Shown in pieces: positions 4,224 through 29,024 of a stretch of DNA of 37,504 nt (its first letter is position 1; every line of letters begins with the position of its first letter). The translations under genes were made by a program, and so were the position numbers. The notes beneath the pieces were generated by a model. That model saw only the letters and a program-made list of their open reading frames with translations, was not told the DNA's origin and did no database searches. This DNA is from Pyrinomonadaceae bacterium (lineage in GTDB: Bacteria > Acidobacteriota > Blastocatellia > Pyrinomonadales > Pyrinomonadaceae): contig JAJQRF010000018.1 of assembly GCA_021228405.1 (NCBI GenBank), positions 1 to 37,504 on the forward strand. Direction: 5' to 3'.

Positions 4224-6074
4224 ATGCCAAAATCTGTCTTTTTCTACCTTTTAATTCTTTTTTTATTTTCAATCAATAATTTTGCCGCTATCAAAACCTG
4301 GGACGGCGGCGGCGGCGATAACAACTGGACGACCGCCGCCAACTGGGTCGGCGATACCGCGCCAGCCGCAAATGACGACCTGGTTTTCCCCGCCGCCGCC
4401 GCACAACAATCGAACAATAACAATTTTTTTATTTTAACGGCATTTCGTTCGATCACTTACGAAGGCGGTGCTTACACCGTCAGCGGAAACCCGTTTCGCC
4501 TAACGAACGGCTTGACCGTCAGCGGCGGCACGCAGACCATTAACACGGCAATTTCATTGACAGGTGCGCAAACGTTCAATTTTGCGCAAACGTCTTTAAC
4601 GACCATCGCGGTTTTGTCTGTTTCAAGCGGCGGCTTGATCTTCGACGGCGACGGAAACGGCGGAATCGGTTTGATCTCGGGTTCGGGCGGTTTGACGAAA
4701 AACGGACTCGGCGCGGTTTTGCTCGCTTCATCATCGGGTTTTACGGGTTCGATCACGCACAACAGCGGAATTTTCGCAGTGGATGCCAATATTCCGAACA
4801 GTGCCGTCACGATCAACGCCGGAACGATCGGCGGAACCGAGCTCGGTTTCAGCGGATTCGGCGGAACGGGAACGGTCGGGACAGTCAACGTCACGCAGGG
4901 AGTTTTGAGCGCGGGAACGCTGACTTCGCCGACGGGAATTTTGAACACGGGAAATTTAACTTTCACCTCAAACGGCAATTTAGCCATCAAGATCGGCGGC
5001 ACAACGGCGGGAACGGGCGGTTACGATCAGATAAATGTCGCGGGAACGGTGACTTTAAATAATGCACGGCTTGCGCCCATCCCTTGGAACAATTTCCAAA
5101 CATCGATCGGCGATTCGTTCACGGTTTTGCGAAACGACGGCGCGGACGCGATCAACGGAACGTTTCTCAATGCGCCCGAAGGTGCGGTATTCGGCGGCGC
5201 GCTCAACACGGCTTTCCGCATTACCTATCAAGGCGGCGACGGAAACGACATCGTCATTTCCCGCGTCAATCTCGCCGATTTCGATTTTGACGGCGACGGG
5301 AAAGCAGATGTTGCGGTTTTCCGTCCGTCAAACGGTGTCTGGTATCAATTTTTGAGTTCAAACAATTCCATTTCCGCGCCCGCATTCGGGCTTTCGACCG
5401 ATAAGTTGGTTCCTGCCGATTACGACGGCGACACGAAAACCGACGTTGCCGTTTTCCGTGACGGCGTTTGGTATTATCTGAAAAGTTCGGACAACAGCTT
5501 CGCGTTTATATCGTTCGGAACGGCGGGCGACATTCCCGTGTCGAACGATTTCGACGGCGACGGACGCGCCGATTTTGCGGTTTTCAGACCGTCGAACGGA
5601 AATTGGTATCAACTGCGAAGCCTCGGAAATCAAGTCTTTACCGCGCCTTTCGGACAAAACGGCGATCTTCCGCAAATTGGCGATTTCGACGGCGACGGTT
5701 TCGGCGATCTGTCGGTTTATCGAAACGGAAACTGGTATTTTACCTTGAGCGCGGACAATTCGTTTTCGGCGGTTGCCTTCGGAAATGCGACCGACAAACC
5801 CGTTCCTGCCGATTACGACGGCGACGGAAAAACCGATGTCGCGGTTTATCGGGACGGAAATTGGTATATTTTGAATTCTGCGAGCGGATTTTCAGCCGTC
5901 GCATTCGGGATTGCGACCGATATTCCCGTTCCTGCCGACTACGACGGGGATGGAAAAGCGGACGTGGCTGTTTATCGAAACGGAATCTGGTATCGGCTCC
6001 GTTCGACCGCCGGTTTCGACGCGGTCAGTTTCGGAAACTCGACCGATAAACCGATTCCCGGCGCGTTTCAATAA
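4224..6074 (+). CDS. Secreted autotransporter-strand / FG-GAP (VCBS-like) repeat protein
   Basis: 616 aa. It has a signal peptide (1-21). The N-terminal half begins KTWDGGGGDNNWTTAANW, the usual start of the autotransporter-associated beta-strand (PATR-like) Gly/Thr/Asn-rich region, and continues to about residue 345. The rest (about 351-616) is six repeats of roughly 44 residues built on D-[FY]-DGDGK-x-DVAV-[FY]-R followed by NWY/VWY, i.e. FG-GAP/VCBS-like blades with DxDxDG calcium loops. The C-terminus ends PIPGAFQ, like the truncated paralog at 1-96. Probably exported; a role in surface binding or adhesion is only a family-level guess. No catalytic motif is visible. Base composition is GC-rich with many GGCGGAACG runs from the repeat structure. 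It is followed by a palindromic element at 6083-6154. Confidence 0.85.
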   Translation: MPKSVFFYLLILFLFSINNFAAIKTWDGGGGDNNWTTAANWVGDTAPAANDDLVFPAAAAQQSNNNNFFILTAFRSITYEGGAYTVSGNPFRLTNGLTVSGGTQTINTAISLTGAQTFNFAQTSLTTIAVLSVSSGGLIFDGDGNGGIGLISGSGGLTKNGLGAVLLASSSGFTGSITHNSGIFAVDANIPNSAVTINAGTIGGTELGFSGFGGTGTVGTVNVTQGVLSAGTLTSPTGILNTGNLTFTSNGNLAIKIGGTTAGTGGYDQINVAGTVTLNNARLAPIPWNNFQTSIGDSFTVLRNDGADAINGTFLNAPEGAVFGGALNTAFRITYQGGDGNDIVISRVNLADFDFDGDGKADVAVFRPSNGVWYQFLSSNNSISAPAFGLSTDKLVPADYDGDTKTDVAVFRDGVWYYLKSSDNSFAFISFGTAGDIPVSNDFDGDGRADFAVFRPSNGNWYQLRSLGNQVFTAPFGQNGDLPQIGDFDGDGFGDLSVYRNGNWYFTLSADNSFSAVAFGNATDKPVPADYDGDGKTDVAVYRDGNWYILNSASGFSAVAFGIATDIPVPADYDGDGKADVAVYRNGIWYRLRSTAGFDAVSFGNSTDKPIPGAFQ

Positions 6075-9936: not shown

Positions 9937-10028
<92 letters not shown>

Positions 10029-10105
10029 ATCAATTTCGGATATAAGAATTGCGGATTTTGGATTCAATCAAATCCGCTTTATCTTTGAAAAAAAATAAGC
10101 TTTCA

Positions 10106-10195
10106 GGAAAGGTGCAAGAGTGGTTGAATTGGCAGCATTGGAAATGCTGTGAGCCTTAACGGGTTCCGTGGGTTCGAATCCCACCCTTTCCGCCA
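10106..10195 (+). tRNA. tRNA-Ser (anticodon GGA)
   Basis: The acceptor stem GGAAAGG (10106-10112) pairs with CCTTTCC (10185-10191), then G and encoded CCA (10193-10195). The anticodon arm CAGCA-TTGGAAA-TGCTG gives GGA, reading UCC/UCU. It has a long class II variable arm and a standard T-arm. The body is nearly the same as tRNA-Ser(CGA) upstream, and the 3' flanks of the two genes are also alike. Confidence 0.95.
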
Positions 10196-10199
10196 GTTC

Positions 10200-10269
10200 G
10201 ATTTCGGATGTCGGATTGCGGATTGTGGATTCATAAAAATCCCAAATTCCAAATCCTAAATCCCAAATC
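10200..10269. repeat. Heptamer-repeat hairpin between tRNA-Ser and SRP RNA
   Basis: Left arm: degenerate 7-bp units CGGATGT CGGATTG CGGATTG TGGATTC (about 10205-10232). Right arm: AAATCCC AAATTCC AAATCCT AAATCCC (about 10237-10264). The arms are roughly complementary around an ATAA loop, forming an imperfect hairpin with 7-bp period. It lies directly upstream of the SRP RNA. Confidence 0.6.
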
Positions 10270-10276
10270 AAAATAT

Positions 10277-10379
10277 GGCTTCAGGCTCCGCACAAGGTTT
10301 GAGTTGTGAACTCCGCTAGGCGAGGAATCGAGCAACGGTAACAATTTCAGCTTGTGTTGCGGTTAAGTCTGAAGCCTCC
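10277..10379 (+). ncRNA. ffs: Small bacterial signal recognition particle RNA (4.5S-type)
   Basis: The terminal stem GGCTTCAGG (10277-10285) pairs with TCTGAAGCC (10368-10376), allowing a wobble. The conserved Ffh-binding helix 8 is present: GTGAACTCCGCTAGG, a GGAA tetraloop (10324-10327) closed by CGA/TCG, then GAGCAACGGTAAC, and the 3' side TGTTGCGGTT. This is the standard small SRP RNA that targets ribosomes making membrane and exported proteins. It lies just upstream of dnaX, a common arrangement in bacteria. Exact 5' and 3' ends are estimates. Confidence 0.9.
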
Positions 10380-20479: not shown

Positions 20480-23400
20480 TTATTGATTTTCACTAACGAA
20501 ATTCAGATCGGTAACATTCGATTCCAGACTGACAACACGTGTCGGCGTAGTAAACACATAACGTTTCGATTCGATCGTCACGATATATGTCTGTCCGACC
20601 GCCAGATTGTCAAAGGTAAAGATACCGAACGAACCCGTCTTAACGGTGATCGGTGCGGGCAGATTTCCGCCTGAAAGCGTAACCGCCGCATTGCGGATTC
20701 CGTTACCTTCAAACGTCGTAACCTTACCGCTGATGCTGGCAGGTGCCGAAGCCGGAGCGTAGAATTCATCCGCGCCGATGTCAACCTGAACGACGAGCGC
20801 ATCGGTCGGATTCGGACGCAGTTGATTGTCTTTATCGACCGTGATTCCGGCGATCGGGATTCCGATGTTTCTGACCGGGCTGGTCGGCTGTAGACGCAGA
20901 TTATCGAGCGGATTCAGGAACAGCGGATCGACATCGACCGAGTTTGCATCGTCCGAAACGACTGTCCGCCAAACACCGATGGTCGGTGAATCGGTTCCCG
21001 CCGAAATCGCCAGCGAACCTGTGCGGAAGAATCCGGGATTCACACCCGCACTGTAAAAGTCATTGTAATCCGAATCCAGATTTACGAAGGTCGTCGTAAC
21101 CATTCCGATCGAATAACTTTCAGCCGCCGTGCCGCCGCTTCCGGGATCGAGCGTATTGAAGAAAACGTTATTTTTCAGCTCAACCGTTGGATCCGTTCCC
21201 GTGATCGCAATGCCGTATGAAGGCATTTGGGTAAGAGTCGTGCCGCGGTTTCCGGTCAAAGCAACAGAGTTGTAAATCACTCTGGTGTTTGAACCGGTTG
21301 CGCCGATAACGAAAATTCCGACCGGAAAATCGGGCGAAGTCGAGTTTGCAATCACTCCTGCGATCTCGTTATTGGAAATGATATTTGCTCCCGTCGTTCC
21401 GCCTGCGACCGTAATTCCTGCTGCCGAAAATCCTGACGCGGAATTGCTGTTCACGCCGACAATGCGGTTGCGGGTCACGGTCGAGTTGGTGATGCCGCCG
21501 CTTGTTACGGTGGTCGTATCAACACCCTGTGTTCCGACACCGATTCCGATTACGTCGGCAGATTCGTTTGAATCGAGTCCCGAAATATAGTTTTCGGAAA
21601 TTTCCATACCGTCCTGATTGAACGTCAAGATACCGACACGGCGAATGCGGTTCGTGGTCGCTCCGGTCATATCGTTTTCGGTAATGACCGTTCCCGTTCC
21701 GGGTGTTGCCGCAGCGACACCGGCGGCGTAAATTCCGATGATTGACCTTCTGAAAGAGCAATTCTGAATTCTCGTACCGTTGTTATTAACGGTTGCTACC
21801 GTTCCCGGAGTTGCTCCGCCGACCGAGATTCCACCAAGCGTCGTCGTCGGGTCTTGTCCGACAATATTTACGTTTTGAATCGTATTGTTCAATGCCCCGT
21901 TCGTTCCCGATTGAATCGCAATAACCCACGATGCCGTTCCGGTATTCGTATTTTGAATGGTCAATTGGCGAGTTGCCGGATTTCCGCCGACGAGATTATC
22001 CGCCAACGTTGCCGTCGTCGAACCGTCGATGCGAACACCGTCGGCACCGTTGATCTTGATTAACGCGCCGTTGATGCTTCCCGAAATCGTGCGCGGTGCG
22101 CCGCTCGGTTTGATGAAAACGGTAAAGCCGCCCGGAATTTCATTAAGTGCGACTGCACCCGTTTCCGCCAACAGATCGGATGTAATATTGATCGTCAGAT
22201 TTGAAGTTGCCCCCAAATTATTGATCGTATCGAACACTCCGCCCGGATTGGTCAATGACGTGAAGTTTCCGCCCGCGCCGAGCGTATATGTGCCCGAAAG
22301 CGGATTCAGAATATTTAACGTTCCCGCAATCTCATTATTTCCGGGAACAGTGTCGCCGACCAGTTCCGCAGTTGCTTTGATCGTGTAACTTCCCGCAACG
22401 CCGATCGAAGTTGACGGGAACGATACATTCACCGTAACTCCCGTCGCAATCGTCGGAATCACTGCCGTGTTGTTATAAAGAACCGTCGAACAACCTGCGT
22501 CGGCGCAAATTCTGTAACGAACCGTCACGTTGGTTTGCGTCGCAATTCCGTTGTTCGTAAACGAAGCCTGCGGCGTGAAAATCGATCCGACAAGTTTTGA
22601 ACCGCCGTTTGCGGGGTCGATAAACGCCGTTGCTTGAATATCATTCGTGACAGGCGGAATTCCATCGCGTTCGTCCGCGCCGATGTCGAACAAAGCATTA
22701 AGACCGGGACGCGAGTCGCCGTCAAAGTCATTTGCAATGCCCAAATTTGCCGCTTGATCGATGGCGGGCGAACCGACTTGCAAATGCAGATCGGTATTGG
22801 AAACGAACAACGGATTGGCTTGAATACTGTTCGCATCCTGCCCGACCGCCGCTTGCCAACCAGCCAAAGTGCTGAAATCAAGACTGTTAAAGAAGCCTAA
22901 AATACCGCCCGTTCCGTTGGCGAAATAGACGTTGTTATTGATCGTCAAACCCGTCGGATTTGCCGCCGTTCCGTTTATTTTGATGGCATAGTTTGAGCCG
23001 GTCGCTCCGGCATTACTTCGCCCGTTAAAGAAAATATTGTTGCGGAAACTGCGTGTGTTGACAGTCTGTGTTCCGTTAAAGGCATACGAAGCACCCGTTC
23101 CTGCCGTCGGACTTCCGCCGATGTAAATACTGTTATTTACGAAAGTGTCCGTTCCCAGAGCACCGTTGAAACCGTTGATGCCCGTCGTCGAACTGTTGGT
23201 CGGAGTTCCGCCGAGTGCGTTCGTGATCTCCGTGCCGAGAATAATCATATTGTTTCGGTAAACGGTCGTTCCGCCGCCGACTCTGATTCCGTTGACTTCG
23301 GCAGTTGCACTGTTTGTCGCCGAACTGAAAAAGCCGATAAAGTTTCGCTCGACGACATTTGCCGTCCCGCCCGTAAACTGAATACCCGTAACAATCGATG

Positions 23401-24991
23401 CGGCGGTCGTATTCGTATTGGTCAAACCGCTGATCGTGTTTTGTGTAACCGTCTGATTCGGCGTGGTGCTGGTAAAAATGATCCCTGCCACCGAAGCTCC
23501 CGTTCCCGTTCCCGTTCCGATATTTGTACTGAGATTGCGGATTCGGTTTCTCGTCAGTGTCGAGATCGCATTCGGCGTTTGCATACCGACGACCTGCGAA
23601 GCCGTTCCGGTCGCGTTCAACGCGATCGTATTGGCAAGCGGTCCGCCCACCACGTTATCCGATGCCGTCCAAGTCAGCGTCGTTCCCGTATTGGCACGCA
23701 TTCCGTAAACTAAAAATGTCCCCGAAGCTCCGGCATTCGTGACCTGAATCCCGCCGATATTATTATTATTTGAAACCCAGTTGTTCAAACTGAAATTGAA
23801 CATCCCGTAAACATCCGTGGCAGTTGTCGTGTTTGTCGAAAACACTAACGAATTGATTGAAGCCTGACTTCCGACCGTGTTGTTGCTCGTTTCGGCGACA
23901 CCGTTAATGACCAAAATCGGCACGAACGGCGAAGACGTGCTTGTGCCGCTCGAAGTCACGCCCGTCATACTGACTTCCGCAACCCTGTTGTTATTGACAA
24001 CCGAATTCGTTCCGCCCGTAATTCCGTTGAAAACGATTCCCTGAAATTTTCCGGTCGAGCCGGTCAAGGCATAAGTTCCGGTTTGCGTGTTTGTCGCATA
24101 TCCGACGATGTTTCCGGTGACGGTCATCCCTTGCACGCCGCTCGTTGCAGTCGTGCTGTTCAAATCGATCGCTCGGTGCGTTGCGCCTGTTGTCCAAGTG
24201 CGTAATGCTGTTTGATAGAAGCGGTTATTGGTGATCGTCCAGGTGTTACAGCCGCCGTTGACCGCCACGCCCGAGCTCGTTACCGCCGCGTTGAAAAAGT
24301 CAAAAATGTTGTTGTTGTTAATGACGATTCCGCTGTTTCCGATCGCGGTTGTCGTGGTCGAACCGTTACCCAAAATCCCTTTGGTCGGAAGATTTCCGCC
24401 GGCGGGACCGATATTGTTGTTGGAAATCGTGTTGTTATCGTTTCCGTTTGCGGTCACGGCATCGGTGCTGAAAAAAATGACCGCACCGTTTGTCGCGACG
24501 GAGTGTGTTCCAGCACCTTGAACATTGGAATTCGTAATGGTGTTGTTCGTTGCGCCGCCGATAAAGCGGATGGTCGAAGTTCCTGACGTTGCCGAAATCG
24601 TCGTATTCGCAATCGTCAAACTGTTTCCGCCAGTGTTCAAACCGTCGATCGTGACGTTGTCCGCGCCGTTAAAGTCGATCAACGGGGATCCGGCGGTTGC
24701 CGCTCCCGAAACCGTTCTTGCGCCTGACGGCGTAATTATAATCGATGTATAAGATGCTGCGCCCGTCCCGCTCGCGTTCAAAATGGCTCCCGCCGCCGGT
24801 TCGGTCGTGTCGTTAACGATCGAAACCGTGACTGCGCCGGTGTGGGTTCCTGCATTAATGGCGGTAAATGCGTCGGCTAACGTTGCATAACTGCCGCCGC
24901 CCGGATTTACGTTGACATTTTGTGCCATTGCGGTGACCGCAAATGCAAGCACGATGAATGCCGATAAACTGATTTTTCTCAAAATTTTCAT
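20480..24991 (-). CDS. Large secreted parallel beta-helix protein with CARDB-like and carboxypeptidase-regulatory-like domains
   Basis: 1503 aa with a signal peptide (1-23, AFAVTAMAQ). The first beta-helix module (about 25-775) starts NPGGGSYATLADAFTAINAG and has many N-N-x-I/V ladders, closing with DFDGDSRPGLNALFDIGADE. Residues about 780-895 look like a CARDB/Ig-like domain (NDIQATAFIDPANGG to GDTVPGNNEI). A second beta-helix module (about 900-1410) opens with GGNFTSLTNPGGVFDTINN and again ends DIGADE. The last 85 residues (SGKVTTFEGNGIRNAAVTLSG to LNFVSENQ) are a carboxypeptidase-regulatory-like beta sandwich. No lyase active site is recognisable, so binding or adhesion is as likely as polysaccharide cleavage. 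A Shine-Dalgarno GAGGAGAGGAG supports the start. Confidence 0.88.
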   Translation of the reverse strand: MKILRKISLSAFIVLAFAVTAMAQNVNVNPGGGSYATLADAFTAINAGTHTGAVTVSIVNDTTEPAAGAILNASGTGAASYTSIIITPSGARTVSGAATAGSPLIDFNGADNVTIDGLNTGGNSLTIANTTISATSGTSTIRFIGGATNNTITNSNVQGAGTHSVATNGAVIFFSTDAVTANGNDNNTISNNNIGPAGGNLPTKGILGNGSTTTTAIGNSGIVINNNNIFDFFNAAVTSSGVAVNGGCNTWTITNNRFYQTALRTWTTGATHRAIDLNSTTATSGVQGMTVTGNIVGYATNTQTGTYALTGSTGKFQGIVFNGITGGTNSVVNNNRVAEVSMTGVTSSGTSTSSPFVPILVINGVAETSNNTVGSQASINSLVFSTNTTTATDVYGMFNFSLNNWVSNNNNIGGIQVTNAGASGTFLVYGMRANTGTTLTWTASDNVVGGPLANTIALNATGTASQVVGMQTPNAISTLTRNRIRNLSTNIGTGTGTGASVAGIIFTSTTPNQTVTQNTISGLTNTNTTAASIVTGIQFTGGTANVVERNFIGFFSSATNSATAEVNGIRVGGGTTVYRNNMIILGTEITNALGGTPTNSSTTGINGFNGALGTDTFVNNSIYIGGSPTAGTGASYAFNGTQTVNTRSFRNNIFFNGRSNAGATGSNYAIKINGTAANPTGLTINNNVYFANGTGGILGFFNSLDFSTLAGWQAAVGQDANSIQANPLFVSNTDLHLQVGSPAIDQAANLGIANDFDGDSRPGLNALFDIGADERDGIPPVTNDIQATAFIDPANGGSKLVGSIFTPQASFTNNGIATQTNVTVRYRICADAGCSTVLYNNTAVIPTIATGVTVNVSFPSTSIGVAGSYTIKATAELVGDTVPGNNEIAGTLNILNPLSGTYTLGAGGNFTSLTNPGGVFDTINNLGATSNLTINITSDLLAETGAVALNEIPGGFTVFIKPSGAPRTISGSINGALIKINGADGVRIDGSTTATLADNLVGGNPATRQLTIQNTNTGTASWVIAIQSGTNGALNNTIQNVNIVGQDPTTTLGGISVGGATPGTVATVNNNGTRIQNCSFRRSIIGIYAAGVAAATPGTGTVITENDMTGATTNRIRRVGILTFNQDGMEISENYISGLDSNESADVIGIGVGTQGVDTTTVTSGGITNSTVTRNRIVGVNSNSASGFSAAGITVAGGTTGANIISNNEIAGVIANSTSPDFPVGIFVIGATGSNTRVIYNSVALTGNRGTTLTQMPSYGIAITGTDPTVELKNNVFFNTLDPGSGGTAAESYSIGMVTTTFVNLDSDYNDFYSAGVNPGFFRTGSLAISAGTDSPTIGVWRTVVSDDANSVDVDPLFLNPLDNLRLQPTSPVRNIGIPIAGITVDKDNQLRPNPTDALVVQVDIGADEFYAPASAPASISGKVTTFEGNGIRNAAVTLSGGNLPAPITVKTGSFGIFTFDNLAVGQTYIVTIESKRYVFTTPTRVVSLESNVTDLNFVSENQ

Positions 24992-24999
24992 ACTCCTCT

Positions 25000-25437
25000 C
25001 CTCTTTAGTTGTTCGGTCACAGATAGATTGCCGGATATTTATTTCAGACAGTGTTAGATTTAGCGGCTTAGAAATTTATACGGGGGTTAATCAAGAAATT
25101 CTAAAGATACTGTCTATTTTGAAATTAAATATTTCTTTTTGCTTCTCTATCTCATAATCCTTTTTTCTCAAATACGTCTGCGTCCGAATGGACGAACTTC
25201 GACCTGCAAGCGGAGGCAAAGTTCCTAATTGACCCAAAATATTCTTGAATAAAAGGTGAATTCTCAAAAAAACCTAAAGTGCCGTATTGCGGGAACTTAC
25301 TGTTTTTTAAGATTTTTTCTAATTTTTTGTTGCTAACTCATTAAACTTCACAAGCATTTCTATGTCAAGCAAAAATTAAGTCAAATTTAAGATTCGGGAA
25401 TGATTTTTTGGCAGTTCGGCAGGATTCTTTAATTTAA
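25000..25437. other. AT-rich gene-free region upstream of the 1503-aa gene
   Basis: No credible gene. Two adjacent foldable segments stand out on either strand: CGTCC-GAAT-GGACG (25181-25194), and GAACTT (25194-25199) with AAGTTC (25219-25224) enclosing CCT/AGG. This could be the 5' leader of the minus-strand gene; no known riboswitch was recognised. Confidence 0.4.
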
Positions 25438-25475
25438 ATGAAAAAAAGCGTATTGCCTGTATCAAGACAATACGC
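25438..25475 (-). terminator. Terminator of the 346-aa beta-helix gene
   Basis: Minus-strand hairpin GCGTATTG / CAATACGC (plus-strand 25448-25455 and 25468-25475) followed by seven or more T residues on the minus strand (A run 25441-25447). It lies 25 nt past the stop codon at 25501. Confidence 0.88.
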
Positions 25476-25500
25476 CAAAGAATTTTTATTGGTAAATTTT

Positions 25501-26541
25501 CTACTTTCTGGCTTTGCCCGAAGTCACGTTACAAGTCGGGCAATACCTGATCTGATAACCCGAATTCGAGTCTGAATCACCGAATTTGACCATATCGGTC
25601 AGAGTCACAGCGTTTACTTCGAGATACGAACCGTTTCTGATCTCAAATGCGGGACGCGGACGAGTCGGGAAACCGAAAATCGAATTTAACGTTTCCGCAT
25701 AGCCCACGTTTTTCAAGCTGACTCCCGCACCATCTTTGTTCAGGGTGACATTAACCGTCAAACCGTCGAGCGTCGCCGACATCTGATCTTCGATCCTGAT
25801 CGATTTCAGAGCCGCCGAATCGAAATAGCTGTCTTTGATACGAACCAATCCCTTTCCGACCGACACGGGATTTTCGACTTTCACCCAGTTTTCAGGGCTG
25901 ATGTCAGACGCTTTGCGGGCAGTCGTGTTCAGATATTCGCCTTCGTTCTTAAATACCGTGTTGTTGATCGAAAGGCTTTTCGACGAACGCGTGACGACCG
26001 CGCTTGCCTGTGCCGCAGAACCGTAAAAGATCGTATCTTCAACAACTGCGGCTGTGTCGTTAAATTCGACAATCCCCGTGACGGCTCCGACATCCAGAAA
26101 CGCGCAACGGCTGATCGTTGTTTGCGAACCTTTCTTCGCCCAGATAACGCGTTGGGCATTGATTACCACATCCGTATTGCCGATAAAATTGAGGCTTTCG
26201 ACTTCTGCCTGGATGGAATTTTCAAAAACAAAATAATTCGTCGCCGGACTGCCGTTCAGTTTGACGTAAGAGCCTTTGTCGCCGCTCATCCGAAAGCTGA
26301 CTACACCGCGCGGGTTAAATACTATTTCTCCCTCAATATCCGTGATACCTGATGGAAAAACCAAATCGCCGCCGCCGTTTTCCAGCAAATCCTGCACCGC
26401 CTGTCTGACGGCATCCGTGTCGTCCGTATCATCATTGGCAACCGCGCCGAAATCCGTCACATTTACCGTTTTCGCCTGTGCCCCAAACACAAACATAAAT
26501 GTAAAAACCGTGATGGTCATTATCTTAAAAATCGTCTTCAT
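25501..26541 (-). CDS. Secreted pectate-lyase-superfamily parallel beta-helix protein
   Basis: 346 aa. Signal peptide (residues 1-23, MFVFGAQA). The mature N-terminus KTVNVTDFGAVANDDTDDTDAVRQAVQDLLENGGGDLVFPSG is the classic opening of the pectate_lyase_3 / GH28-like family (the DFGA-x-GD-x-TD-T-A pattern). Beta-helix rungs follow (VWAKKGSQTTISRCAFLDVG, VVEDTIFYGSAAQ, GLVRIKDSYFDSA). The C-terminus carries a pair CPTC (about 337-340) that could bind metal or form a disulfide. No polygalacturonase catalytic triplet is visible, so activity is uncertain. It lacks the C-terminal beta domain of its neighbours. A Shine-Dalgarno AAGGAG lies 6-8 nt before the ATG. Confidence 0.85.
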   Translation of the reverse strand: MKTIFKIMTITVFTFMFVFGAQAKTVNVTDFGAVANDDTDDTDAVRQAVQDLLENGGGDLVFPSGITDIEGEIVFNPRGVVSFRMSGDKGSYVKLNGSPATNYFVFENSIQAEVESLNFIGNTDVVINAQRVIWAKKGSQTTISRCAFLDVGAVTGIVEFNDTAAVVEDTIFYGSAAQASAVVTRSSKSLSINNTVFKNEGEYLNTTARKASDISPENWVKVENPVSVGKGLVRIKDSYFDSAALKSIRIEDQMSATLDGLTVNVTLNKDGAGVSLKNVGYAETLNSIFGFPTRPRPAFEIRNGSYLEVNAVTLTDMVKFGDSDSNSGYQIRYCPTCNVTSGKARK

Positions 26542-26620
26542 ATTTTCTCCTTGGGATGTTTTTGTCTTAAATTTGTATATTTGAATCGACGCGATTTCAT
26601 ACGCGCTACATCCTTACTTA

Positions 26621-26636
26621 TCGGCAAATTTGCCGA
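26621..26636. promoter_or_regulatory. Perfect 16-bp palindrome upstream of the 346-aa gene
   Basis: TCGGCAAATTTGCCGA is fully self-complementary, about 80 nt upstream of the ATG at 26541. Size and position suit a dimeric repressor operator, but no regulator is known. Confidence 0.4.
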
Positions 26637-26765
26637 AAACTTGAGATTGATCGGAAGAGATTGTTCTCACTATTAGACTTAACAAAAAGCCAGTTTTTAT
26701 TGATTCAGAAGAATGAAAATGAAAACGGGCTAAATATTTTTTTTAAAATTTTCAGATTGTCCGGA

Positions 26766-27731
26766 TTATTCATCGGCGACAAAATTCACGTCCGACACGT
26801 CGTTTTGCAGTTCCATCACGATGTTCGGTTGGCTGAAGCGGTATTTTTTGGAAATCACGCTCACGACATAGATTTGATTCGGTGCCAGTTCAGTGAAATT
26901 ATACGCTCCGAAATCGTTCGTTTTGGCGTAAAGCGGCTCGGTGAGGTTTCCGCCGATCAGCATCACGGTCGCGTTGCGGATTACGCCCCGTTCGGTCATC
27001 ACGCGACCGCCGAGCGAAACATTTGCGGCGGTCGCCAATGAATAGGTAATAGTTAGCTCGGCAAAATTCACAGTTCCCGTGTCGCCTTCGCCATTGTCGG
27101 AAACATTCAATCTCCAGGTTCCGTTTGCCAGTTGTGCCTCCAAACCTTGAAAACCGTTGTTGTTGAGATTTAGAGAATGCCCCGCAAAGATCGGATCCAT
27201 ATTTGTAAAATCAGCCGAACCGCCCGAAGTGGTGCGGTAAAATCCCGCCGGAATAACGGCTTCGCTTCCGACCGAAGTTGCAGACTGCCAAAGATCACCG
27301 CCTTGATCGCTAAAAGTATACGGACCCGCAAGATCGGAACTGTCGCCCGCGCCGCCGACGATGGTTTCGCCGACCCGATCAACCAAAGTGTGCGAAGCAT
27401 TGTTCGGCGATGTCAGAACGGCTTTGATGTCGCCGCTCCAGGTGTGTGCCGGGTTGAATCCGAAACTGATTTCGACGTGATTAACGATGCCGTTGATGCC
27501 CGAAACATTGAAAAGAAAATTCGTCCCGTTGGCATCGCCGTCGGGAATTTCCAGAGGAATCGCTGAAATGGTCGTAAAACTCCGTGAAGATAAGTTCGTT
27601 ACGGGCGGATTTTCGGATTTTTGCGCCGGAATTTCCCGGTTTGAAAATATCAGCAAATTCAGCGTCAGCAACATTAAAGAAAAGGCGTAGAATTTTTGTA
27701 GATAAATATACTTAAAAAGTCGATTTTTCAT
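26766..27731 (-). CDS. Secreted P-domain-like protein with C-terminal carboxypeptidase-regulatory-like domain
   Basis: 321 aa. A signal or anchor hydrophobic segment lies near residues 14-30. Residues about 55-225 resemble the proprotein convertase P-domain: IPDGDANGTNFLFNVSGINGIVNHVEIS, a HTWSGDIKAVLTSPNN hallmark, and the closing GTWRLNVSDNGEGDTGTVNFAELTITY. Residues about 235-321 are the carboxypeptidase-regulatory-like domain (GGRVMTERGVIRNATVML to SDVNFVADE), close to the C-terminus of the 1503-aa protein. There is no protease domain; the P-domain stands alone. A Shine-Dalgarno AGAGGA precedes the ATG. The upstream leader contains a 14-bp inverted repeat (27763-27855). Confidence 0.85.
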   Translation of the reverse strand: MKNRLFKYIYLQKFYAFSLMLLTLNLLIFSNREIPAQKSENPPVTNLSSRSFTTISAIPLEIPDGDANGTNFLFNVSGINGIVNHVEISFGFNPAHTWSGDIKAVLTSPNNASHTLVDRVGETIVGGAGDSSDLAGPYTFSDQGGDLWQSATSVGSEAVIPAGFYRTTSGGSADFTNMDPIFAGHSLNLNNNGFQGLEAQLANGTWRLNVSDNGEGDTGTVNFAELTITYSLATAANVSLGGRVMTERGVIRNATVMLIGGNLTEPLYAKTNDFGAYNFTELAPNQIYVVSVISKKYRFSQPNIVMELQNDVSDVNFVADE

Positions 27732-27762
27732 TTTTTTTCCTCTGTAAATTGATAATTAAAGG

Positions 27763-27855
27763 ATTGGCGGGATCGACCTGAGAAATGTGAGATGCTGGTA
27801 AACTGTATTAAGCCTGCGGAATGTCTTCCGTTTTAAGTTGTTCGATCCCGCCAAT
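27763..27855 (-). promoter_or_regulatory. Structured 5' leader element closed by a perfect 14-bp stem
   Basis: ATTGGCGGGATCGA (27763-27776) and TCGATCCCGCCAAT (27842-27855) are exact inverted copies 65 nt apart. The interior holds a smaller hairpin around GCGGAATGTCTTCCG (about 27815-27830). It lies within 35 nt upstream of the start of the P-domain gene (minus strand) and is followed by its Shine-Dalgarno. It could be a regulatory leader RNA or a small mobile palindrome; no known riboswitch was matched. Confidence 0.55.
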
Positions 27856-27877
27856 TATCTTTTCGGCAGAAATGAAA

Positions 27878-27913
27878 TAAAAAAAAGGGCGAAATTCAAA
27901 AAATTTCACCCTT
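27878..27913 (-). terminator. Terminator of the 361-aa secreted protein gene
   Basis: AAGGGCGAAATT (27885-27896) pairs with AATTTCACCCTT (27902-27913) with one mismatch; the minus strand continues in a run of T residues (plus-strand A run 27878-27886). It lies about 25 nt past the stop codon. Confidence 0.85.
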
Positions 27914-27938
27914 TTCATTACCCGTTATTTTTTCCGCA

Positions 27939-29024
27939 CTATTTCGGCGGCGATTTTTGTTCGGCTATCAGATCATTTGACGTGTCCGGCGTAAAGTCCA
28001 GATCATCCCTGTCTGACGAAATAACAACGATCTTCGGAGTGTATGTATTGTTTTTGGAATATGCGTGAATGATGTATGTTTCTCCGACAAAAATCCCGTT
28101 CACTCGATAATTTCCGAATTGATTGGTTTTCGCGATAATGTTGTTTCCTTCGCGGTCGGTGACAATGACGGTTGCGCCTTTGTAACCTCTTTGCTGTGAG
28201 TTCATTACTTTGCCGCTGATAACCGCTTCCGCCGCGGTCGTGACGAAACAACCGACCGTAATATCGTCAATTCCAACCCATTCGTCGTTTCCGGCGGCAT
28301 TTGTCGTCATAATCCGCAAAAACAAAATATCCTGCGACAAGACCAGATGCGGCAACGTTGCGAAAACGCTCGAAACTTTCGTCGCGGAGTTGGGATTGGT
28401 CGCATCAGCAACAAAAGCCCCCGGAACATTTGTAAAATTGCCCGTAAAACCGAGCCGGTATTGCAAAGCAACCTGCTGAACCGCATTGTTTGCCGTGCTG
28501 TCCAGATCGCGAACGTTATAAGCAACCGTCATTACCTTTGAATCGGGACAGTTTTTGGTATTCAGACGAATTAAAAGATTCGGAGCATCCGCAGTATCGT
28601 CGCCTTTCAACGCCACGGTCGGATTTGCCAACCCGTCAAATTCGGCAACTCCGCCCTGCACCAACGTGTTCGGATTCGACTGGTTCGCGATAACGTCGAT
28701 CGGGGTCGCGTCACCCGGAGCCAGCACGGTTTGCGGATCAACCCCGACTCCCGTCGTCAGATTGTCGCCGCGAAATCCCGTGATCGCGATAAAATTATCC
28801 CAGTTGTCATCGGTATTGATCGAAACTGTATCAGACCAATTTTGCAGATACGGATCGCTCGGCGAAATGAACCACGATAAATTATTCAAAAAATCTCTGG
28901 CGGATGTTTTGACCGAAGTCGTATTGATTACAAATGCGCCGAGCGCAATCGCAAAAATCATTGCGGCGGCACGAAAATATAAGCCTTTCTGAGATGTAAA
29001 AATTGTCTTTTTAAAGTTCAACAT
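27939..29024 (-). CDS. Secreted protein, unrecognised ectodomain plus C-terminal carboxypeptidase-regulatory-like domain
   Basis: 361 aa. The N-terminus has a basic stretch and a hydrophobic segment (about 18-36, FRAAAMIFAIALGAFVINTTSV). Residues about 50-255 form a beta-rich, Asn/Thr-rich region (SDTVSINTDDNWDNFIAITGFRG, GVAEFDGLANPTVALKGDD, EWVGIDDITVGCF) that I do not recognise as a named family. Residues about 262-350 are a carboxypeptidase-regulatory-like domain (ISGKVMNSQQRGYKGATVIV, TNQFGNYRVNGIFVGETYII, DRDDLDFTPD), related to the C-termini of the two neighbouring proteins at 20480 and 26766. A hydrophilic tail rich in Lys/Pro ends it. Shine-Dalgarno GAGGAA. Function unknown. Confidence 0.82.
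   Translation of the reverse strand: MLNFKKTIFTSQKGLYFRAAAMIFAIALGAFVINTTSVKTSARDFLNNLSWFISPSDPYLQNWSDTVSINTDDNWDNFIAITGFRGDNLTTGVGVDPQTVLAPGDATPIDVIANQSNPNTLVQGGVAEFDGLANPTVALKGDDTADAPNLLIRLNTKNCPDSKVMTVAYNVRDLDSTANNAVQQVALQYRLGFTGNFTNVPGAFVADATNPNSATKVSSVFATLPHLVLSQDILFLRIMTTNAAGNDEWVGIDDITVGCFVTTAAEAVISGKVMNSQQRGYKGATVIVTDREGNNIIAKTNQFGNYRVNGIFVGETYIIHAYSKNNTYTPKIVVISSDRDDLDFTPDTSNDLIAEQKSPPK

Follow-up and report, generated by a model that had tools for sequence, protein, structure and literature searches.

Three neighbouring genes with a common terminal domain

The window, the whole 37,504-nucleotide stretch of DNA analysed here, carries on its minus strand three neighbouring genes whose products end in the same type of domain, which we call the terminal domain. 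The three open reading frames lie where the first-pass annotation had placed them, and their C-terminal ends can be aligned over 80–86 residues, with 45 and 40% identity of the other two copies to that of the 1503-aa protein. The motif that had been given for these ends was also correct. Its most distinctive residues are the Phe in T-x-x-F-G-x-Y and the Lys in S-K, referred to below as Phe43 and Lys64, and all three window copies keep both. The features of the window are listed by position.

4224–6074, plus strand: 616-aa protein with an export-like start and FG-GAP repeats at its end from about residue 354 (profile match).
9937–10377, plus strand: two tRNA-Ser genes, then a small SRP RNA.
20480–24991, minus strand: 1503-aa protein with an export-like start, NCBI's choice-of-anchor Q domain and the terminal domain at its end (profile and sequence match).
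20483–20740, minus strand: terminal domain of the 1503-aa protein, residues 1418–1503 (alignment; AlphaFold pLDDT 93.6).
20564–20566, minus strand: signature Lys1476 of the 1503-aa protein (alignment).
20627–20629, minus strand: signature Phe1455 of the 1503-aa protein (alignment).
25501–26541, minus strand: 346-aa rhamnogalacturonase-like protein of the same cluster, without the terminal domain (Pfam PF12708, just over the cut-off).
26766–27731, minus strand: 321-aa protein with a P-domain (Pfam PF01483) and the terminal domain at its end.
26769–27020, minus strand: terminal domain of the 321-aa protein, residues 238–321, with signature Phe and Lys (alignment).
27939–29024, minus strand: 361-aa protein with the terminal domain, then 15 more residues (alignment).
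27987–28226, minus strand: terminal domain of the 361-aa protein, residues 267–346, with signature Phe and Lys (alignment).

The PF01483 match agrees with the P-domain-like part that had been proposed for the 321-aa protein. No Pfam match supported the beta-helix that the first-pass annotation had read into the 1503-aa protein, and the ectodomain of the 361-aa protein had no family match in Pfam or NCBIfam. The fourth protein that had been assigned to the cluster is indeed present, as the rhamnogalacturonase-like protein that lacks the terminal domain. Pfam CarboxypepD_reg (PF13620) matched the three ends at 36.9 bits (1503-aa protein), 26.7 bits (321-aa protein) and 29.5 bits (361-aa protein), and only the first of these lies above Pfam's cut-off of 32.3 bits. 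The viral contigs that we searched contained no relative of the 1503-aa protein. The cluster had been taken for a surface-protein locus, which did not hold up: the cluster has ATP synthase genes (epsilon, alpha/beta family) upstream on its own strand, followed by further housekeeping genes, and the window is therefore not a dedicated surface or secretion locus.

A terminal subfamily with its own signature

Searching the genome of origin (5.7 Mb, 20 contigs) with the 1503-aa copy as query gave 30 matches, among them the other two window copies at E 3.1e-18 and 2.2e-6. Twenty-eight of these matches lie in separate proteins, with the domain no more than 30 residues from the C-terminus; of the remaining two, one is a second copy, internal to a 2108-aa protein that ends in the domain as well, and the other lies close to the start of a 1075-aa protein resembling a TonB-type receptor in its architecture. 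The shared-domain observation is confirmed and extends beyond the window to 28 proteins, and this set, including the three window copies, is not a product of chance. The ectodomains of the 28 comprise pectinesterase/pectate lyase, alpha-amylase, reprolysin, subtilase, delta-60 propellers, DUF11 and beta-helix types; a choice-of-anchor Q domain is found in six and CSLREA in five, and a 'PTAA'-like linker usually precedes the terminal domain. Above the PF13620 cut-off were 24 of the 28 terminal copies, the other four scoring 26.7–31.2 bits. PF13620 as a whole has 92 matches in the genome, and outside the set most of those inspected were N-terminal or internal. The first-pass annotation had held that equally frequent N-terminal or internal positions, or cytoplasmic carriers, would speak against sorting; many members of the PF13620 family at large in this genome have such positions, and the family as a whole fails this test, but the subfamily does not, and the positional test therefore belongs to the subfamily. 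Two further proteins of about 300 aa (L042 and L049; G000:C13:54536-54766 and C18:48369-48575) have at their end a generic PF13620 domain that lacks the signature Phe, and neither has a typical export signal by eye.

We then ran a profile of the 28 copies (A2) on loci from this genome, 25 relatives and nine named contigs; the relatives' loci were no random sample but had been selected from lists ordered by score and distributed across genomes. The search gave 124 distinct matches of at least 55 bits (28 in the own genome and 96 elsewhere), of which 123 lie no more than 30 residues from the stop codon; in 107 of the 124 the protein ends within 3 residues of the domain's end. The single non-terminal copy, L109, bears the signature and has FG-GAP repeats after it. 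Below 55 bits, the same loci yielded 25 distinct matches, of which 22 were internal or N-terminal, three were cut and none was terminal. By a crude rule, export-signal-like starts were found in 97 of the 106 carriers with complete 5' ends, compared with 108 of 300 conserved neighbours, and in 25 of 27 carriers of the own genome. Several of the nine carriers that fail the rule still have a hydrophobic start, including the 321-aa protein of the window, and some resemble broken frames. The profile search that had been suggested as a check therefore bore out terminal position and export, but not a co-occurring partner gene: none was recognised in the 40 largest neighbour clusters from 1056 open reading frames around the copies. 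Conserved neighbours were rejected as partners. Several of the repeated ones turn up jointly in one set of loci, a pattern resembling gene order shared by close relatives.

The terminal copies carry residues of their own. With a generic set that omits matches shorter than 50 residues and all open reading frames of 12 loci of relatives in which sister copies, sub-terminal or terminal, occur (L134–L137, L139, L144–L147, L154, L155 and L158), Phe43 was found in the same profile alignment in 119 of 124 terminal copies and in 1 of 58 generic ones; for Lys64 the counts were 108 of 124 and 3 of 51. Position 65, mostly Arg in terminal and mostly Gly in generic copies, makes up with these two the three strongest private positions of the subfamily. 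Phe43 together with Lys or Arg at position 64 was present in 115 of 124 terminal copies, 1 of 58 generic copies and none of 11 copies from sister genera that precede DUF4214 stretches. Two g158 copies are terminal yet lack the signature Phe.

An AlphaFold model of the terminal domain (pLDDT 93.6, pTM 0.80) has seven strands in a transthyretin-like beta-sandwich. Among the fold matches listed, the transthyretin-like domains of carboxypeptidase D/N and Cna-B domains reached Z scores of about 10–11; the list also includes SdrD, UafA, pilin Cna-B domains and teneurin, and no T9SS C-terminal domain (CTD) is among the best 50. Judged by strand order and alternation in the model, the loops with Phe43 and Lys64 are predicted to be at the same edge as the chain terminus. 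Subfamily-specific positions over the whole domain were not enriched on this C-terminal edge (Mann–Whitney p 0.49 and 0.17, not significant), and we gave up the idea that one edge bears a conserved surface patch, although the two strongest signature positions are placed there.

Exchange of the C-terminal slot within the family

Across 247 genomes of the phylum, best matches with E below 1e-20 occurred only in the query's family. The best match elsewhere, at 2e-19, is a terminal copy with the signature Phe (L134) in a genome of another family of the phylum (G026), and perhaps arrived by horizontal transfer. The query's family, 119 genomes, is probably Pyrinomonadaceae (Blastocatellia, Acidobacteriota), and the named contigs that matched carry the labels Pyrinomonadaceae or Acidobacteria. 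Within it, the best match reaches E 1e-20 or lower in 68 genomes. DUF4214 (PF13946), which has no match in the own genome, was found in 49 of the 119: in 1 of the 68 with strong terminal-domain matches (G248, with one match) compared with 48 of the 51 others. This exclusion follows clades and may represent a single event. In sister genera (G075, G247 and G197) a PTAA-linked domain of the same type is followed by about 250 residues with two DUF4214 stretches (Pfam), so the last position is not essential to the domain type. In seven genomes of the DUF4214 clade (G337:C87, G339:C55, G336:C107, G338:C78, G344:C760, G318:C198 and G281:C139), a DUF4214 match belonging to an open frame of 668–954 aa lies 0.25–0.55 kb upstream of an exosortase match on the same strand, a proximity that hints at a link of DUF4214 with exopolysaccharide.

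Choice-of-anchor Q proteins provide a common ectodomain behind which the C-terminal slot can be compared. We classified 73 such proteins in 19 genomes from 121 matches, several of which share an open reading frame, leaving out contig-end and unfetched matches (chiefly in G274, G255, G276, G347 and G157). In the nine terminal-domain genomes there are 46, of which 36 end in the domain, seven end in FG-GAP and three are neither or weak (terminal-domain scores of 23.0 bits, 12.7 bits and none). The ten DUF4214 genomes have 27, and none of these ends in the domain: 13 have DUF4214, 12 neither module, and two are cut. Among the 13, two have DUF4214 after a domain of the terminal type and in five the fetched stretch stops within the module; the 12 include one with a masked stretch and one that ends two residues past the match. 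A profile built from three FG-GAP tails of the kind seen in the 616-aa protein of the window gave, in the fetched loci, 21 strong matches that are not cut, that protein's among them, and each of the 21 ends its protein (tail 0–4). FG-GAP is an alternative terminal module of the terminal-domain clade. The tail shared by export-like proteins and its exchange behind choice-of-anchor Q indicate that the domain occupies the position of a sorting or retention module. Neither DUF4214 nor FG-GAP is a proven anchor, so a slot shared with them is no proof of sorting.

A candidate surface module, its alternatives and known systems

By sequence, proteins that begin with an export-like start and vary widely in their ectodomains end in one transthyretin-like beta domain with a private Phe/Lys mark. 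We propose that the terminal domain is a C-terminal surface-targeting or retention module, a reading to which we assign a probability of about one half. Carriers would enter the periplasm via Sec; the terminal domain would fold after entry, and its Phe43/Lys64 loops would dock onto one common partner. This putative partner could be an outer-membrane protein or a surface polysaccharide that brings the carrier out of the cell or tethers it at the surface. A DUF4214 pair in sister genera, and sometimes an FG-GAP module in the terminal-domain clade, would take the same slot, so that delivery of ectodomains to the surface seems to rely on modules that can replace one another. The earlier interpretation of a sorting or anchoring domain is in this respect partly supported. 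Terminal position, export-like starts and the anchor slot in choice-of-anchor Q proteins speak for it; its sorting part, as opposed to adhesion or retention, has gained no support so far: neither a partner gene beside the copies nor T9SS components were found (the latter searched without a matching control for SprA and PorV, as detailed below), exosortase had no match in four near-complete genomes rich in the domain, and the domain of the sister genera is sub-terminal.

Surface placement of enzymes and adhesins in these Acidobacteriota seems little studied, and the accessible parts of the literature returned by our search gave no description of the terminal domain. One profile and two signature residues list the presumed surface cargo of a genome, here 28 proteins, and the terminal domain, DUF4214 and FG-GAP after the same choice-of-anchor Q domain form a natural contrast. 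Going further, the domain might be the signal of an undescribed outer-membrane export or surface-anchoring pathway, probably in Pyrinomonadaceae and convergent with type IX secretion, whose Phe/Lys-marked transthyretin-like C-terminal domain is replaced by or extended with DUF4214 in sister genera; we regard this as rather doubtful.

The main rival is a plain structural or adhesive end-cap, and it is a distinctly possible one. A stable transthyretin/Cna-B-like domain would stiffen the tail or bind glycans or surfaces, with no sorting partner and with ordinary release, for example by type II secretion. The stalk and adhesin domains among the closest listed folds, next to carboxypeptidase D/N, are consistent with this, as are the slot shared with FG-GAP and DUF4214 and the sub-terminal domain in sister genera. 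Adhesive stalk domains, however, are usually tandem and internal, whereas the terminal domain is nearly always last, on enzymes and propellers alike, and the signature is absent from the sub-terminal sister-genus copies.

It is unlikely that the terminal domains are a self-assembly module, packing together or into an S-layer or matrix lattice and giving retention with no separate receptor. The transthyretin-clan fold and an S-layer assembly (8qox) among the fold matches listed would fit such a role, and one study reports that the clan can form amyloid and that a four-copy PF13620 protein lies in a cluster with a CsgG-like transporter (PMC4737851). Such fold matches are common, however, and these data contain no sign of assembly.

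A true type IX secretion signal is very improbable. The logic would be the same: a Sec signal at one end and, at the other, a beta-sandwich of seven strands and some 80 residues, which is how long T9SS CTDs are described (PMC11969387). One domain-bearing relative, G157, has a Por_Secre_tail match below the cut-off (E 3e-4, 23.4 bits). By contrast, a search for Por_Secre_tail (PF18962) at E 0.001 found nothing in the own genome but matched 11 of 297 phylum genomes, G157 among them (six of the 11 above the cut-off), and one control genome, below the cut-off. SprA was found in none of the 119 family genomes or the 297 phylum genomes and PorV in none of the 119, in searches in which no positive control matched.

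An exosortase, sortase or rhombosortase substrate tail, for which an EpsH-type exosortase in the own genome (92 of 119 family genomes, own included) might speak, is close to refuted by the tail sequence: in alignment and model the terminal-domain ends are beta strands with no membrane helix and no basic cluster or tail. Exosortase also occurs in genera without strong terminal-domain matches and had no match in the near-complete G141, G149, G173 and G181 (98% complete), each with at least 22–23 terminal-domain matches at E 1e-12; it seems dispensable for the terminal domain, and we rejected it as the partner.

The proposed surface module can be set beside known systems. With PF13620 CarboxypepD_reg, of the transthyretin clan, the terminal domain has fold and core motif in common. 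Its subfamily differs in the Phe43/Lys64 signature, the PTAA-like linker and the terminal position: hardly any generic copy of the genome bears the signature, and most sit at the N-terminus, as in TonB-type receptors, or inside the protein. PEP-CTERM and other exosortase or sortase tails occupy the C-terminal slot after choice-of-anchor domains and end in a membrane helix and basic tail; the terminal domain is instead a folded soluble domain, abundant in four genomes without an exosortase match. T9SS CTDs of type B (Por_Secre_tail, PF18962/TIGR04183) likewise combine a Sec signal with a beta-sandwich at the end of proteins whose ectodomains vary and sometimes include choice-of-anchor domains (PMC11969387), but differ in that the own genome has no PF18962 match and that SprA and PorV were not found, in searches without a matching control. 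Membership in either system was not borne out, and the terminal domain may resemble T9SS CTDs and PEP-CTERM in logic. The tandem DUF4214 (PF13946) tails of sister genera belong to another Pfam family, without a match in the own genome, but are like the terminal domain in occupying the same slot behind choice-of-anchor Q or behind a domain of the same type.
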